IMG/VR virus record: IMGVR_UViG_3300027985_000286
Coordinates: 1 to 64,000 of that record
Length of the DNA stretch: 64,000 nucleotides
Source: a virus
Direction: 5' to 3' (one strand)
Shown: positions 26,893 through 62,311 of the stretch, one piece after another
Numbering within the stretch: the stretch's first letter is position 1
How the letters are laid out: the number at the start of each line of letters is the position of its first letter
Translations under genes and position numbers: made by a program
Notes under the pieces: model-generated
What the model saw: only the letters and a program-made list of their open reading frames with translations
Databases searched by the model: none
What the model was told of the DNA's origin: nothing

Positions 26893-26968
26893 TGGTGGGC
26901 CCGGCGGGATTCGAACCCGAAACCTGAGCGTTATGAGCACCCTGCACTAACCGTTGTGCTACAGGCCC
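26893..26968 (-). tRNA. tRNA with CAU anticodon (Met elongator or Ile2)
   Basis: Full cloverleaf on the minus strand: acceptor GGGCCTG/CGGGCCC, D-stem GCAC/GTGC, anticodon stem GGGTG/CGCTC with loop CTCATAA, T-loop TTCGAAT, and an encoded CCA. The T-stem has one U-C mismatch. A paired first acceptor base and the lack of GGG/CCC in the anticodon stem argue against initiator tRNA. With TilS lysidine modification it would read AUA. Confidence 0.9.
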
Positions 26969-52879: not shown

Positions 52880-54601
52880 CTACTTGATGACCGTAAAATC
52901 GTTTTCTAGCTTGAAAGAAATCTCGCTTCTAAAGTGCGAAGCCATCTCTTCTTGTCTCTGAGTGATAACAAAGATGTTCTTATCCGAAAATTCCTGCTTA
53001 AGAAGCAACAGTAACATTTCAACGCCCTCAGGGTCAAGTGACTCCATCATCTCATCAATAAAGAGCAAGTTGCACGATAGAGTAGACTTTGCCTCTGCCA
53101 CTTTCTTCCAAGTAAGAAGAATTGCAAAGTCAACCCTCCTCTTCTGACCGTTAGACAGGTTTTCGTACACAAAGCCAGACCTGGCTGGATTAGCAAACGA
53201 CTCGCCGAACGTTTCGTCCAACTGAAACGCAATGTTAAAGTTCATCTTCTCAAGAAAACCATTAAGGATCTGGTTAATCACAGGAATGTACTGCTTGATG
53301 ACGTGAGCCTTTGCACCGTCATCCTTTAAAGAAATCACTACGTCTCTTAGCGCATCGTAAACCTTATCGACGTCAGCTTTTCTGATAAGCAGTTCGCTCA
53401 TCTTGCTCTGGAGCTCTTTCAGCGTTTCCCTCTTAGGGTCCAAATCAAGACTACTCTCTAGCTTTTTGATAGAGGCCTCGATAAGAGAAAGATTGGCCTT
53501 TGCAGCATCCAGCTCTGCTGACACCAGCATGGCTCTTTGCTTGATTTCTCTTACCTTCTCCTCAGTATCAATGAACGAGTTAACTGCAAGACGATGATCT
53601 TCCTCCCTGCGCTTCAGCTCCTCATGCTTTCCGTCAAGGTCTCTGATTTGGATGTTGCAATCATCAACAATAGACTTCACGTGGCTGGGGTTCATGCTCT
53701 GCCCGCACGTAGGGCAAACGCTATTACTTTCAAAGAACCCAATCTTGTCCCAGCAGGCTTTGATCTTAGTTCTAATCTCACCACCAAACCTAAAGAAGTT
53801 GGCAGTCTTCTCCTTCATCTTATCGCCGTCGTACGCTGTTAGAGCGGTCAGGAGAGGACTTGCCTCTTCCTTGACCAAGCGTAAACGTTCTACAATTTCG
53901 TCGCAGCGTGCACGCTCTGAGGCAGCCTCAGCCTGCTTTTCGCTAACCTGTCTTGCTGCATTGGCCTCAAGTTCAGAGATTAGAGACGCAGCATTATCAA
54001 TGTCTTTTTGTAGAAGACGGATGTTAAGCTCAATGTCATCATACTCAATCTTAACTTGCTTGATTTTTGCAGATGCAATCTTGTTCATGAACGAGAAGAT
54101 GCTAATACCTAAGACATCTTCTACAACCTTTCGTCTACTAGCAGCATCTAAGGACATGAAGGGGACAAAGTCTTCCTTTTCCAGGATGACCATCTGGGTA
54201 AAAAGTTTCTTGTCAAAACCAATCCTATTCTCCAACATCTTCTGATATAGCTTAATGTTGGCAGGTTGCTTGAGAAGCTCACCGTTTTCCCAAATTTCAA
54301 ACTTCTTGGGTTTTTCTCCTCGTACTACCTTATACAGAGTGCTTCCTTGCTTCCACTCGATCTCAACCTCTAGTCCGCCCTTACTCTTGATGTTGATTAG
54401 ACCACCCAGATTCACTTTTCTGTGAGGTCTACCAAACAAGGCATACACGATAGCTTCTGCGATTGTGGTTTTGCCTGATCCGTTAAGACCTGTGATTGCG
54501 GTTAGGTGCGATTTATCCAAGTCAATGGTAATCCAGTTGTTACCTACCGCAAGAAAGTTTCTGTATCGTACCTTAATGAAGTCTAAGTGCATTCTACTCA
54601 C
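52880..54601 (-). CDS. 46: Recombination nuclease ATPase gp46 (Rad50/SbcC-like)
   Basis: Walker A GLNGSGKTT (38-46), long coiled coils around a CPTC zinc hook (about 302-305), signature LSNGQKRR, Walker B LLFIDEMMESLD. 573 aa (T4: 560). Forms the gp46/47 complex for end resection and host DNA degradation. Overlaps gp47 by 8 bases. Confidence 0.93.
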   Translation of the reverse strand: MSRMHLDFIKVRYRNFLAVGNNWITIDLDKSHLTAITGLNGSGKTTIAEAIVYALFGRPHRKVNLGGLINIKSKGGLEVEIEWKQGSTLYKVVRGEKPKKFEIWENGELLKQPANIKLYQKMLENRIGFDKKLFTQMVILEKEDFVPFMSLDAASRRKVVEDVLGISIFSFMNKIASAKIKQVKIEYDDIELNIRLLQKDIDNAASLISELEANAARQVSEKQAEAASERARCDEIVERLRLVKEEASPLLTALTAYDGDKMKEKTANFFRFGGEIRTKIKACWDKIGFFESNSVCPTCGQSMNPSHVKSIVDDCNIQIRDLDGKHEELKRREEDHRLAVNSFIDTEEKVREIKQRAMLVSAELDAAKANLSLIEASIKKLESSLDLDPKRETLKELQSKMSELLIRKADVDKVYDALRDVVISLKDDGAKAHVIKQYIPVINQILNGFLEKMNFNIAFQLDETFGESFANPARSGFVYENLSNGQKRRVDFAILLTWKKVAEAKSTLSCNLLFIDEMMESLDPEGVEMLLLLLKQEFSDKNIFVITQRQEEMASHFRSEISFKLENDFTVIK

Positions 54602-55676
54602 CCACCGCCATCATGTCTACCGCTTCATCGTAGATCTGTCTAACGGTATTAGCTAAAGTCGTCTTATCTGCCTTACTGTACTCTTCAACGTAACCCATCA
54701 AAACCTCTACGGTACCTTTCTTGGCAGCGTCTTGGATAATCTTGCTCGTATCGTCTGGGCTGATGTTAGTCAACAGGTAACGTTCAACAACTCCAAACGA
54801 TATGAGATCTAACGTGTCAAGCCTCTTTTTAAGACTAAGGTACTTCTTGTTATCGCTCTTGTTCAAGACGATAAGCTCAAGAATACTGCCCTCCAGCTCA
54901 CGTTTCAAGACATCGGCATCCGGAACCTCAAACTCAACCGAATCATCATAGTAGATACGCTGAAACAAGCAGTAATCATTTTCAACATACTCATCGTCGC
55001 CTGTATCAGTGTCAAGAACGAAGAAGCCTCTCTTGTCTCCGTAACACTGCCAGGTCAAGTGAAACGTAGACCCGATATACTGGATGTTATCTGTTAAACC
55101 TGGATGGTGGTAGTGTCCGCTATACACCTTTTTGAAGTGCTTGAAGATACCCGAGTCCAAGCCCTTTTCCGACACGCTGTTGGCGTACATCTTAGCACCA
55201 GCGACCTCGAAGTGGCCTACACAGTAATCAGCTGTGGACTCTGCCATCTTCAAAAGAAACTGCTCAGCGTTATTCTTAGATAACCACGGTACGAGGCAGA
55301 AGGTAGTACCACCGATATGAACGTCTTCTACGGATTCGATTAGCTTGACGTTTGGATGGTTAGGGAAAAGTTCTTTGATAGCATTGATCTCATTGTCATG
55401 TCTAAAGAAGATGTCGTGATTGCCCGGGATGACATACATCATCACACCTTCTTTCTCAAGCATATCAAAGAAAGACTCTTTCATGGAACGATGGACCTTA
55501 TAGTTGATGTTTGTTTTCACATCAACAAAGTCACCACCATGAATGATTACTTTAATGCCGTGCGCCTTGAGATATGGAAAGAAGACCTCTTTCCAATAGT
55601 AGCGCATCAGTTCTTCGAAGGCGCTGGAGTTACCCCTAGCGCCCCAGTGAGTATCAGAGATTAACGCAACCTTCAT
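54594..55676 (-). CDS. 47: Recombination nuclease gp47 (Mre11/SbcD-like)
   Basis: Metallophosphoesterase: LISDTHWGARG (Asp8, His10), IHGGDFVDVK, VIPGNHDIFF, and a YSGHYHH site. 360 aa (T4: 339). Works with gp46. Confidence 0.93.
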   Translation of the reverse strand: MKVALISDTHWGARGNSSAFEELMRYYWKEVFFPYLKAHGIKVIIHGGDFVDVKTNINYKVHRSMKESFFDMLEKEGVMMYVIPGNHDIFFRHDNEINAIKELFPNHPNVKLIESVEDVHIGGTTFCLVPWLSKNNAEQFLLKMAESTADYCVGHFEVAGAKMYANSVSEKGLDSGIFKHFKKVYSGHYHHPGLTDNIQYIGSTFHLTWQCYGDKRGFFVLDTDTGDDEYVENDYCLFQRIYYDDSVEFEVPDADVLKRELEGSILELIVLNKSDNKKYLSLKKRLDTLDLISFGVVERYLLTNISPDDTSKIIQDAAKKGTVEVLMGYVEEYSKADKTTLANTVRQIYDEAVDMMAVGE

Positions 55677-56984: not shown

Positions 56985-57653
56985 ATGGCTGATACCCCAA
57001 CTAAATCAAAGCAAGAAGCTCTAGAACGAGAACTGGACAAGAGTAGACCAGCTCTTGTCCGTACCCTCATCAAAAGATACCATCGTGACTTCGGTGCTAA
57101 CGCAGCACGTCACTCTCGTAGAAGTAGACAATGGTTTAGAGAGCAAGCGACTAAGATAGGCAAGGTTCGCACATCCAAGATCATGAAGGCTCAATGGATT
57201 GCGGACAAGCCTAAAATTGGTCGCTTGTACCTGTACCAGTACGATGCCAAGACTAAAGATACGTTACCATATTGGGATATGTTCCCATTGGTGTTCTTCT
57301 TCAACTCTTGGACAGGTAAGAATGGAAAGAAGTACCTAATTGGTATCAATCTTCATTACCTGCAGCCTGCTCTCAGAATGTACCTTTTTGCTGAGTTGCT
57401 TTCGCTAAGAAACGAAAAGAGGTACAGACCTAATACACGACTCAAGATATCGTGGGAGATACTACAGCGATTTGCCAACTTCAAGCTGGTTCAACCTTGT
57501 GTTAAGAAGTACCTAGTGGAGCACATCCGTTCGAAGTTTATTGAAATCCCGTCCGAAGATTGGGAAATTGTCATCCCGTTGGGTCTGGAGAGATTCCAGA
57601 AGGCAGCTTCAGCTAAGGTTTGGTCAGACTCAGCTAAAGGTAGAACAAAGTGA
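56985..57653 (+). CDS. Conserved virion/baseplate-linked protein (222 aa)
   Basis: ATG at 56985; longer readings would start upstream of the predicted late transcript. Basic first 70 residues, then LYLYQYDAKTKDTLPYWDMFP (in part: YDAKTKDTLPYWD) and GINLHYLQPALR, a pattern common in T4-like and cyanophage tail regions. Exact role unknown. Overlaps the next gene by 4 bases. Confidence 0.7.
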   Translation: MADTPTKSKQEALERELDKSRPALVRTLIKRYHRDFGANAARHSRRSRQWFREQATKIGKVRTSKIMKAQWIADKPKIGRLYLYQYDAKTKDTLPYWDMFPLVFFFNSWTGKNGKKYLIGINLHYLQPALRMYLFAELLSLRNEKRYRPNTRLKISWEILQRFANFKLVQPCVKKYLVEHIRSKFIEIPSEDWEIVIPLGLERFQKAASAKVWSDSAKGRTK

Positions 57654-58504
57654 TAAGCACAAGCGAGATTCTCAATGACATCAAGCTTAACGGTATTGCT
57701 AGGAAGAACCGGTTCCTGGTAGAAATCCAGATACCGGACAAGGTTGTTGAAGCTGCAGCTGCCAAAGGCGTTAAGGTAGACAGTAGAACCTTATCTCTGA
57801 GATGTTACAGCACACAGCTTCCACCGAAATCTATTGCCAGCACTGATGTTAAGATTGGTGGTGTTAACCAGAAGATTCCTTACAGCAGAACCTTTGATGA
57901 TGTGACCATGACGTTTCTCATTGAGCGCAACATGAACACTAAGAAGGTTTTTGATATTTGGCAAGATGTGATCGCCCCTAATGACTTCGGGCATGTTGCC
58001 TATGCTGACGATATCTCAACAACTGTCTCGGTTAGCCATATCACGAACACAGATACGATTGAGTACACTCTATTCCTAAAGAAGGCATACCCAATTATCG
58101 TTAACTCACTGGATTATGCCAACGACGACAACGAGAGCTACCAGGCTCTAGGCGTTACGTGGACATTTAGAACTGTATCCTCTACAATGGACTCCAAGGA
58201 GACTAAGCTAACCACGCTACCTTCATTCGATGTATTCAATAAGGACGGGTTTACTGTTGCATCTGTGATGGAGTTTACCAACCAGCTGGCTAGCTTCAAC
58301 CTTCAAGGAGAGGCTCTCCTGTGGTACCAGAAGGCAGATAACTTTGTGGGAGGGTTCACCGGTGGTTACGGCATAAACAGCATTGGTTCTCTTGTTAAGA
58401 GGATGGAGTTTTCTGTTACCAATAACATCAGGTTCCTAGAATCTGATAGAGCTAAAATCACAACCGCTATCAGCTCTCTTAAGAGCAAGCTTGGTATCAA
58501 TTAA
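57650..58504 (+). CDS. 54: Baseplate tail-tube initiator gp54-like (284 aa)
   Basis: GTG start. Tail-tube fold pattern: a LPPKSIASTDVKIGGVNQKIPY-type loop, FDDVTMTFLIERNM strand, and a late KAYPIIVNSL strand. Closest by layout to gp54 of T4-like phages (with gp48 nearby). Confidence 0.7.
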   Translation: MISTSEILNDIKLNGIARKNRFLVEIQIPDKVVEAAAAKGVKVDSRTLSLRCYSTQLPPKSIASTDVKIGGVNQKIPYSRTFDDVTMTFLIERNMNTKKVFDIWQDVIAPNDFGHVAYADDISTTVSVSHITNTDTIEYTLFLKKAYPIIVNSLDYANDDNESYQALGVTWTFRTVSSTMDSKETKLTTLPSFDVFNKDGFTVASVMEFTNQLASFNLQGEALLWYQKADNFVGGFTGGYGINSIGSLVKRMEFSVTNNIRFLESDRAKITTAISSLKSKLGIN

Positions 58505-58516
58505 GGAGATGACTAC

Positions 58517-59260
58517 ATGGCATTGCCCAAACTAAAGGTTCCTGTTTCTAGACTGAAGTCTATGGATGGAAAGGTGACCTATACTATTCGTCCTTTCTCT
58601 AACAAAGAACAGAACATTCTGCTCATGGCCAAGGAGTCGGTTAAGGCTTCTACTGACAAGCGTCAGGCTATGAAAGCTGTGGTAGAGTCAATGGAACAGG
58701 TAATCGGTAACTGCTTGATTGATGCAAATATTGATGACATTCCTTGGTATGACTTCCAGTTTCTGATGATTGAGATTCGTAAGATTAGCGTAGATAATAT
58801 CTCTAAACTCAGCTTCAAGTGCACTAGCACCAAGGAAGACGGTAGCAAGTGCAACACACCTTATACCATCGGTGTCAACTTAGATAAGATTGAGGTTGTA
58901 GGCAAGGTCCCAGAGACTAAAGATGATAGAGTTATTGATATTGACGGTAACGTGAGCGCGTACATGAGGCATCCTACTTTCAAGATGTTCAAGTCAATCT
59001 ACCTCGATGACTTGAACGAGTATAATGCTCTACGCATGTTCATTGAGTACGTGTTTGATAAGGAAGGCAACATATACCCAATGGCTGAAGCAACAGATCA
59101 AGAGCTTGAAGAATTCTTGGAAGATGCCGGTCCAAACATGAAAAAGATCCAAGACTGGATTGAGTCTGCGCCCAAGCCGTATTACCGACTTGAATATACT
59201 TGCAGAGGGTGTGGAAACAAAAAGGTAATTGAGCTGAGGACCCCCGACGATTTTTTTTAA
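58517..59260 (+). CDS. 26: Baseplate hub / tail chaperone gp26-like (247 aa)
   Basis: T4 gp26-type protein: N-terminal strand region, FSNKEQNILLMAKES helix, PWYDFQFLMIEIRKIS and two Cys-pair regions near the middle and C-terminus. Ends ...DDFF at a T8 run. Gene position before the tape measure and the frameshift site suggest that it also serves as a tail assembly chaperone. Confidence 0.75.
   Translation: MALPKLKVPVSRLKSMDGKVTYTIRPFSNKEQNILLMAKESVKASTDKRQAMKAVVESMEQVIGNCLIDANIDDIPWYDFQFLMIEIRKISVDNISKLSFKCTSTKEDGSKCNTPYTIGVNLDKIEVVGKVPETKDDRVIDIDGNVSAYMRHPTFKMFKSIYLDDLNEYNALRMFIEYVFDKEGNIYPMAEATDQELEEFLEDAGPNMKKIQDWIESAPKPYYRLEYTCRGCGNKKVIELRTPDDFF
59251..59257 (+). other. Candidate -1 ribosomal frameshift site (T TTT TTT)
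   Basis: GAT TTT TTT TAA: a T8 run at the stop. Slipping -1 opens the frame LTLLSHES and runs without a stop into the 56-aa ORF. A small stem (AGCATG/CGTGCT, 59278-59293) lies downstream. Transcript slippage on T8 is an alternative route. Confidence 0.6.
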
Positions 59261-59280
59261 CACTGCTCAGTCATGAGAGC

Positions 59281-59451
59281 ATGATTTCGTGCTTCAAGGT
59301 TAACCTCTCACTGAAGAAGCATGGATTCTCTATTACTGAGTTGGATGATATGATGCCTTTTGAAAGAGATGCCTACTTCCTCTTGATTGAGCAAGAGATA
59401 AACGAGAAGAACAGCAAGAATAAGAATAACAAGGCTTTCGATATAGGATAA
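59281..59451 (+). CDS. Small ORF fused by frameshift to gp26-like protein (56 aa)
   Basis: Begins with ATG but has no good ribosome site, and lies in the -1 frame from gp26. Content (LKKHGFSITELDDMMPFERD, then helix) resembles the second part of tail chaperones upstream of tape-measure genes. A fused product would be about 311 aa. Confidence 0.6.
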   Translation: MISCFKVNLSLKKHGFSITELDDMMPFERDAYFLLIEQEINEKNSKNKNNKAFDIG

Positions 59452-59455
59452 TGTA

Positions 59456-61336
59456 ATGGCAACAAACAGCAAAGATACAGACGTTCCACGTCAAGATATG
59501 GTTGACGAGAAGAACGCGAACATTACTCAATCCAAACTAGGCCAGTTCCTAAGCAGGGCTAGAGCAATCCAAGTTGCGCTAGATGTACGCCTTAAGCAAG
59601 GTGATGAGCTAGTTCAGTTCTTGCAGAAGAAGTTAGAGGATAATCTCAAGGCTCAGCTAACAGATAGTCTGGTTATTCGTCGCCAGTCTGTTAGAGAAAT
59701 GAGGACTATTAAAAATCAGATCTACCAAGGAAACCTTTCTCTATCCGAAAAGAACAGGGACGTGTTTGCTGGACTCTACAATAGAGCCATTGAAGAATCG
59801 GTAAAGAGTAACAGCATCCTTGCCAAGACCGCTAGCGATTTTGTCTCGAGCGTTAAGGGCAACCTTCCGTCGATGGACACAATATTGTCTGCCGTGTCGG
59901 TTGCTAACCCTGTTGTTGGTTTTGGATTGAGGCTGACAAAGGACCTGATTGGTAGCGCAAGGAACAGAAAGAGAGCATTTGAAGAAGAGCGTAAGAAGAC
60001 ACTTGAGAACCTAGAGGATGAGGCTAGGAAGACTAGCCTAGAGGACAAAGCTGCACAAAAGCAGCTTGACAATGAAGAGGCCCAAGAAGAAAAGGATAAG
60101 AAGGGTGACGGTGATATTGTCACCATGTCCGATAAATCTGTCAGTGACCTAAACGCACCTTCAGACGAGTGGCTCCAAAAGATTTACACGTCAATAGAGC
60201 AGATTAAAGAGCATACTCTTGATTTGCTAGGCAGACCGGAAGACATCAAGACTGACGATCCCCTAGATCTTCTAAGAGAGTCGCTACAGAACGATGGTAC
60301 AGTTAAGATTGATACTGCAGACCTCCTAAATGCTCAGGAAGACCTTAAGGGAGAGATTGAAAAGGTAGCGGACAACACGGGTGACATTCTCAGTATTAAC
60401 GAGGAGGAGCAACGTGATAACGAATCAGAAAGACTTCAGACCATCGAAGACAAGAGGGAAGATAAGTCGCTTGGGGTGGGCACAGAGAAGATCGCAGAAG
60501 AGGGCAAAGGGAAACTTGGGTCTATTGTATCTGGCATCACAGGAATGCTTCTGGGTCGCGGTGGCCTCGGTATGCTCTTGGGTCTTGCTGGTGCTATCAT
60601 TGGCACTATCATTTCTGTATTGACAGGCTTTGTTGGTCTAGCTGCATACATCCCTGGTATCGCTGTAGTTGGTGCGGCTTTTGCTGCAGCTAAGTCATTC
60701 TTTGACGGGTGGACAGATGCGGCTGCGATTCTTGGAAAACCAGAGAACCAGATTGACTTCGGCGATAAAATTGCTGCTGGTCTCGGTTCTATTGGTGGTT
60801 TGGTTGGTAGTCTCCTTGATATGATTACGTCTGCGTTTGGTTTTGACACTAACCTAGAGGAAGGAATCAAAGATTTCAGCGCCAAGTTTGTAGCAGAGTT
60901 GATTGATGACGTTGAGAGTCTTCTAAAATCTGCTGTTAGCGGTGCGACAGAGTTCTTTGGCAAGCTAGGTGAAACCATTGATAAGGTAATCGAATGGGCT
61001 AAAGAAAAGACCAAAGAGTACCTGCCGGATTTCATGTATGACTGGATGTGGGGCAACTCAAGCGATGTCAACATTGGAGAAGGGTTTACTCCTGGTGGGA
61101 GTGATGTGCAGATGGGAGAGGTTGCACCTTCTGCTAGGGTGTCTAGAGCAGAGGCGCTCAACAGCGCAGTTGAAAGAGCTAAAGCCCAAGGAGCGGCCGT
61201 GCCTACTGTAGTGGCACCCAGCCAGACTACAGTCGACAACTCTAGAAGCACTGTGATCAATGTTCCTAGGAGTGTGCGCAACGACGACAGGACTCTAGAC
61301 AGAATAGAGCGCCAGACTGCGAATGGCGGCTGGTAG
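59456..61336 (+). CDS. 29: Tape measure / baseplate hub gp29-like (626 aa)
   Basis: Long helical N-terminal half, an acidic coiled region (170-320), then a hydrophobic Gly-rich stretch (about 365-425, GMLLGRGGLGMLLGLAG in parts) and an amphipathic C-terminal part. Typical tape-measure layout; T4 gp29 is 590 aa. Placed after the gp26-frameshift pair. Confidence 0.8.
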   Translation: MATNSKDTDVPRQDMVDEKNANITQSKLGQFLSRARAIQVALDVRLKQGDELVQFLQKKLEDNLKAQLTDSLVIRRQSVREMRTIKNQIYQGNLSLSEKNRDVFAGLYNRAIEESVKSNSILAKTASDFVSSVKGNLPSMDTILSAVSVANPVVGFGLRLTKDLIGSARNRKRAFEEERKKTLENLEDEARKTSLEDKAAQKQLDNEEAQEEKDKKGDGDIVTMSDKSVSDLNAPSDEWLQKIYTSIEQIKEHTLDLLGRPEDIKTDDPLDLLRESLQNDGTVKIDTADLLNAQEDLKGEIEKVADNTGDILSINEEEQRDNESERLQTIEDKREDKSLGVGTEKIAEEGKGKLGSIVSGITGMLLGRGGLGMLLGLAGAIIGTIISVLTGFVGLAAYIPGIAVVGAAFAAAKSFFDGWTDAAAILGKPENQIDFGDKIAAGLGSIGGLVGSLLDMITSAFGFDTNLEEGIKDFSAKFVAELIDDVESLLKSAVSGATEFFGKLGETIDKVIEWAKEKTKEYLPDFMYDWMWGNSSDVNIGEGFTPGGSDVQMGEVAPSARVSRAEALNSAVERAKAQGAAVPTVVAPSQTTVDNSRSTVINVPRSVRNDDRTLDRIERQTANGGW

Positions 61337-61414: not shown

Positions 61415-62311
61415 GTGGCTAACCAAACACAAGCACTAAACGATAAGGCTAAGAGAAACCCTTACCTGAAGACCTCACTCAAGTATCCTTTGGACGTTGA
61501 GACTGAAGGGCAAGGTCATATCATTCTATTCAACATCAATGTGGTGTCTGGTACTAAGTTTGCAAACACCACATCCAATATCCAGAATCCAGGACCTGTA
61601 GTTCAAAGACCAGGATCTAACTCCCTAAGGTCTAGAACGTCCCTGGATAGGAACACAAAGCGAATTGACACGTCGATTGCTTTGCACTTACCTCTCAACC
61701 TTACCTTCAACTACATGCAGGATTGGAGCGAGAGTGAGATGGGTGCTGCAGCTAGAGCATACGACTTCGTCTCTAACTGGGACCAGCTTACCTTATCTCA
61801 GGTGTGGGAGTCGTTCAAGACAAGTGGTGGTAACATCCTTGCGAGTATGCTCCAGCAGCTAAGCCCTATCAATGCAAGAGACTTGCTAGATTTCGAACGG
61901 GGTCAGATTAAGAACCCGTACAAAGAGCTTCTCTTCGGTGGTACTAAGAACCGCGCGTTTAACTTTCAGTTCAAGTTCACACCAAGGAACGCAGAAGAGA
62001 CAAAGCAGGTAAAAGATATCTGCAAACAGTTCAAGCTACACCAGGCGCCAGAGTTTGTTGGAACTCTCGGTAACGCATATATCTTATACCCGTCAGAGTT
62101 TGATATTAGTTTCATTAAGAAAGATGGTACGAGGAATGAATGGATTAACAAGATATCAACGTGTGCGCTAACAAGCTGCGAGATTATATACGGAGATGAG
62201 GGAGGGTATCAAATCCATGAAGACGAGTCTCCGGTAGAGATCGCACTGAATCTTGCGTTCATGGAAATGGAAGCTTTGTCCAAGGCAAGAATTGAGCAGG
62301 AGGACTTCTAA
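61415..62311 (+). CDS. 48: Baseplate tail-tube cap gp48
   Basis: GTG start behind AGAGGG. LKYPLDVETEGQGHIILFNI, ALHLPLNLTFNYMQDW, NPYKELLFGG and NFQFKFTPRNAEE match gp48 in order (quoted in short blocks). 298 aa. Stops at the next start (1-base overlap). Confidence 0.85.
   Translation: MANQTQALNDKAKRNPYLKTSLKYPLDVETEGQGHIILFNINVVSGTKFANTTSNIQNPGPVVQRPGSNSLRSRTSLDRNTKRIDTSIALHLPLNLTFNYMQDWSESEMGAAARAYDFVSNWDQLTLSQVWESFKTSGGNILASMLQQLSPINARDLLDFERGQIKNPYKELLFGGTKNRAFNFQFKFTPRNAEETKQVKDICKQFKLHQAPEFVGTLGNAYILYPSEFDISFIKKDGTRNEWINKISTCALTSCEIIYGDEGGYQIHEDESPVEIALNLAFMEMEALSKARIEQEDF

Follow-up and report, generated by a model that had tools for sequence, protein, structure and literature searches.

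Gene Organization at the Junction

The window analysed here is a 64,000-nucleotide stretch of viral DNA, positions 1 to 64,000 of IMG/VR virus record IMGVR_UViG_3300027985_000286. As shown in Table 1, a tail tube protein gene was followed by a gp26-like gene, a 56-aa ORF and a 626-aa ORF presumed from its position to encode the tape measure protein, so that the gp26-like gene and the 56-aa ORF occupy the place of gpG/gpT. The gp26-like ORF passed the curated cutoff of PF12322, the T4_baseplate family (122.9 bits, cutoff 24.5). The 56-aa ORF matched phrog_634 (gp51, baseplate hub assembly catalyst) with E=1.9e-13 and also columns 243-281 of phrog_150, the last 39 columns, which fits family members with both parts in one protein. 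These matches identify the 56-aa ORF as gp51, which corresponds to the C-terminal domain (TAC-C) of a tail assembly chaperone, and the gp26-like protein as the short chaperone, TAC-N. The original prediction had placed the pair directly before the tape measure gene; a plus-strand ORF does start there, at 59456, and its identity as the tape measure is assigned by position only. It matched only phrog_3799, of function not known (E=7e-9), and had no match in a Pfam search.

Table 1. Features at and around the gp26-gp51 junction in the window.
Feature	Position	Strand	Evidence or remark
Tail tube protein gene	57650..58504	+	phrog_3629 E=6e-32, phrog_45 E=2e-25
gp26-like gene (247 aa) for the short chaperone, TAC-N	58517..59260	+	PF12322 E=2e-35, phrog_150 E=1e-36
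GAGG, Shine-Dalgarno-like, weak candidate upstream stimulator	59236..59239	+	11 nt 5' of T8; best anti-SD energy -5.6
T8 slippery run	59251..59258	+	0-frame T TTT TTT, TAA stop immediately 3'; phase as T TTT TTN of relatives
-1 frame reading: LTLLSHES junction and 56-aa ORF (TAC-C, gp51)	59251..59451	+	phrog_634, phrog_150, leave-one-out profile
Two adjacent short predicted hairpins (CTCA/TGAG, AGCATG/CGTGCT), weak candidate downstream stimulator	59266..59293	+	7 nt after T8
ATG of the 56-aa ORF, candidate independent start, poorly supported	59281..59283	+	GAGAG 1 nt 5'; within predicted hairpin
56-aa ORF	59281-59451	+	ORF listing
626-aa ORF, presumed tape measure protein	59456..61336	+	Position only: after TAC, before tube cap
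gp48-like tube cap	61415-62311		phrog_230

The gp26 ORF ended in GAC GAT TTT TTT TAA, and the T8 run lay exactly at the stop codon, as originally predicted. Past the run, the -1 frame read FFLTLLSHES-MISCF... and was free of stops to the end of the 56-aa ORF, which confirmed that a -1 slip would lead through LTLLSHES into that ORF. The predicted fusion protein, TAC-NC, has 311 aa (247+8+56) and a predicted junction peptide of ...DDFFLTLLSHESMISCFK. The T8 was the only run of seven or more T or A residues in the 64 kb window. One T8 was within chance (4.0 +/- 2.4 expected from dinucleotide shuffles), and the 10-codon open -1 stretch 5' of the ATG was not significant by itself.

Elsewhere in the window, a 360-aa protein encoded at 54594-55676 (-) showed a weak PADLOC match to PDC-S10 (E=1.5e-7). 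Its sequence is metallophosphoesterase-like with a GNHD motif, which makes a recombination nuclease of the T4 gp47 type a likelier identity than a defence protein. The sole tRNA gene found in the window was tRNA-Met (cat) at 26893-26968 (-).

Conservation of the -1 Frame and of the Slip Site

The window was compared with 17 reference phages, covering Kyanoviridae, Straboviridae, Ackermannviridae, Pootjesviridae and unclassified phages, and with 114 IMG/VR loci picked by gp26 similarity alone. Removal of near copies left 101 representatives, and 21 remained at under 50% protein identity. In every one of the 132 loci, counting the window (124 distinct), the gp51 domain was found in an overlapping ORF at -1, where chance would give 1/3. 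Seven further phages were added, of which six had the -1 offset and one, Providencia phage PSTCR6, had a fused ORF. In total, gp51 was at -1 in 138/138 unfused loci, and the junction was T TTT TTN or N NTT TTY. The conservation of T run and frame expected from the original prediction thus held throughout, and no relative carried a -1 stop before the gp51 domain or lacked a T-rich slip site. The decisive signal above chance is conservation, namely the -1 offset together with a T-rich slip site in the correct phase.

Among the 124 distinct loci, the slip site was T6, T7 or T8 in the T TTT TTN phase in 103 and N NTT TTC in 21, mostly Ackermannviridae. In each of the 101 representatives, the gp26 stop codon was located 0-3 codons past the slip site. 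The window's arrangement of a T8 with TAA immediately 3' recurred in L120-L122 and L126-L130. The sites of L013, L139, L138 and the Ackermannviridae loci were N NTT TTC or CTT TTT and not T6; P-site re-pairing would be imperfect at such sites, so the efficiency of slippage may differ there. The site of phiMAM1 (Ackermannviridae), G GTT TTC, is that of T7 gene 10A/10B (G GUU UUC), although the T7 gene is unrelated and encodes the capsid protein. T7 gene 10 slips with X_XX = G_GU (PMC5009743).

IMG/VR was searched with gp26, with the DNA end protector and with the 626-aa ORF as queries, and no close relatives of the window phage were found in which the T8 itself could be followed. The gp51/TAC-C frame was present at -1 but unannotated in GenBank in L003, L004, L012, L016 and L136 (S-SSM6b, S-CAM1, Menlow, phiMAM1 and CC2).

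Only T4 gp51 and PSTCR6 were found without a frameshift, each with both domains in one ORF. T4 gp26 (208 aa) consists of the PF12322 part only. T4 gp51 (249 aa) is a natural fusion of TAC-N and TAC-C, matching PF12322, phrog_150 (3-248) and phrog_634 (147-246), and genes 26 and 51 lie on opposite strands. As in T4 gp51, TAC-N and TAC-C shared one ORF in PSTCR6 (L140, 577-1335), and a further hub gene came immediately after it. This suggests that the fused arrangement reaches beyond T4 itself.

Candidate Frameshift Stimulators

The gp26 types taken together were too divergent for a scan of their alignment. A set of 49 cyanophage-type representatives was analysed, selected for fitting a hairpin with at least 8 of 11 pairs. 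In these, an 11-bp hairpin started 6 nt 3' of the T run, and its 5' arm contained the gp51 AUG. Paired cells made up 93.8% of the alignment, a value partly built in by the selection; covariation is the better evidence. The covariation score was higher than in any of 500 shuffles or any slid control, with support coming mainly from one pair, whose compensatory changes gave UA, GC and AU. Structure downstream of the run was stronger than in the rest of the locus: its 50-nt mean z was about -2.1 right after the run and near -0.3 from 15 nt on. At lower redundancy (21 lineages), z was -1.1 compared with -0.15 elsewhere in the locus. A Shine-Dalgarno-like GGAGGG was located 7-10 nt 5' of the run in cyanophages and exceeded the synonymous codon expectation (p=0.0007, 70% clustering). 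Across 21 or 16 diverse lineages, an SD-like stimulator was not significant (p=0.24 and 0.18, respectively), and the element is therefore not claimed for the whole family.

The corresponding candidates in the window were weak. The GAGG had a synonymous-null P of 0.11 (window alone), and the downstream fold had -10 kcal/mol over 40 nt with z -1.2. The T8 may compensate for these weak stimulators. It is conceivable, although we would hold it only tentatively, that T4-like phages carry a slip-site cassette whose parts have drifted. Such a cassette would consist of GGAGGG, T6C and the 11-bp hairpin hiding the gp51 AUG in cyanophages, whereas the window phage and the L120 and L126 groups would have just T8-UAA, and the longer run, perhaps with transcriptional slippage, would there replace the stimulators. 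No description of such a cassette was found in the literature, in which the 2022 Virology paper was represented by the papers citing it.

Predicted Fold of the gp26 N-Terminal Domain

The AlphaFold model of gp26 had a pLDDT of 89.8. A Foldseek comparison of this model with structures gave no significant match, and when the gp26 profile was searched against PDB sequences, nothing relevant and no solved TAC was returned. Among Foldseek's top 1000 chains, VIA-align 2 ranked 2ob9 (HK97 gp13) first (Z 7.7, rmsd 4.3, 86 aligned) and 3klu (YqbN, a TAC-type protein) second (Z 6.6), and the next chain had Z 4.0. Both alignments spanned gp26 residues about 1-94. These values are suggestive of a TAC-like fold of the gp26 N domain, bearing in mind that Z below 8 can reflect a common arrangement.

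Separate Initiation, Transcriptional Slippage and Sequence Error

Could gp51 instead be a separate small protein made from its own ATG by reinitiation after gp26, with the T8 incidental? The ATG lies 21 nt past the gp26 stop, an early ATG was present in the -1 frame in 90/101 representatives, so that separate synthesis of gp51 is possible there, and annotators have called the ORF on its own in many phages. However, in six diverse representatives, including S-SSM6b and phiAS5, no start codon (ATG, GTG or TTG) was found among the initial 15 codons of the -1 frame, and the full gp51 domain could be reached only via a change of frame. The invariable -1 frame, the fact that the cyanophage ATG is part of a conserved hairpin (5' arm), and the retention of both parts as a single protein in T4 and PSTCR6 also speak against separate initiation. 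Homology moreover extends upstream of the annotated ATG of the window: with a leave-one-out profile from which the window was excluded, the full -1 frame scored 63.4 bits, a score that fell to 56.4 when only the part from the ATG was used and to 56.0 when the residues before it were scrambled, and the alignment began at residue 5 of the -1 frame, 5' of the ATG. We regard a separately started gp51 as very improbable.

The same fusion would arise from transcriptional slippage on the T8, with one U added to, or two removed from, some of the mRNAs. Bacterial RNA polymerase slips at runs of about this length, and T8-TAA recurs in other contigs, but most relatives have just T6C or NTTTTC at this place, which is short for efficient transcriptional slippage, and the cyanophages carry stimulators of the ribosomal type. 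Transcriptional slippage as the source of the fusion is unlikely. An error in the homopolymer, with a true run of T9 and a single fused ORF, was also considered, since the source is an IMG/VR virus record and one extra T would join the frames. The identical frame break at the identical place in well over 100 loci, isolates among them, makes such an error highly implausible, and the recurrence of T8-TAA in contigs of several metagenomes (L120-L122, L126-L130) speaks against it as well.

Proposed Mechanism and Relation to Known Systems

From the comparison of sequences, a programmed -1 frameshift very probably joins gp26 to the 56-aa ORF to form one tail assembly chaperone gene. We infer that slippage occurs, as well as its efficiency, its ribosomal nature and the role of its products. 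Most ribosomes would terminate at the TAA after ...DDFF and release TAC-N, and a minority, with tRNA-Phe on TTT TTT, would slip -1 on the U8 run and continue through LTLLSHES-MISCF... to yield TAC-NC. By analogy with lambda gpG/gpGT, TAC-N would coat the tape measure protein, whereas recruitment of tail tube subunits would fall to TAC-NC, the minor form, so that the ratio of the two would matter for tail assembly. Comparative genomics and the gp51 homology support this analogy and the -1 reading, and the TAC-like fold does so suggestively. The lambda gpG/gpGT and HK97 gp13-type chaperones likewise occur as a short and a -1-extended form between tube and tape measure genes, and the gp26 model suggests a similar N-terminal fold. 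In contrast to them, the TAC-N of the window is larger, with more chain past residue 92, its slip site is U-rich, and no sequence match to a solved TAC was found. T4 has homologous proteins, with gp51 holding TAC-N and TAC-C in one ORF, but uses two separate opposite-strand genes in place of a frameshift.

Vladimirov and colleagues reportedly identified the TACs of T4-like phages in 2022, with the frameshift conserved in several groups and with T4 using genes 26 and 51. The same arrangement is described in Vandenendeviridae and Andersonviridae (PMC12846349), a paper that cites Vladimirov, Gautam & Davidson (Virology 2022, 566:9-15) for T-rich -1 signals that T4-like phages have in their TAC-N genes. 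The same work is cited for some T4-like phages having separate short and fused long gene copies instead (PMC10274946). As far as these citations convey its content, the mechanism is known in kind, and the original suggestion that such a frameshift was undescribed for T4-type gp26 was wrong. The window phage shares with the T4-like TACs, as represented there, a gp26/gp51-type TAC-N/TAC-C pair preceding the tape measure and a T-rich -1 signal, but it is distant (~31% identity to the best phage-collection match) and its T8 leads directly into TAA. It is a fresh, divergent example of an already proposed mechanism, and its novelty is modest.

Proteins gp26 and gp51 have long been catalogued as baseplate hub assembly proteins, and they form the TAC pair arrangement in many T4-like phages, in which gp51 is frequently overlooked or given a wrong start in annotation. 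The cyanophage hairpin and GGAGGG provide concrete elements with which the frameshift can be tested experimentally in T4-like phages.
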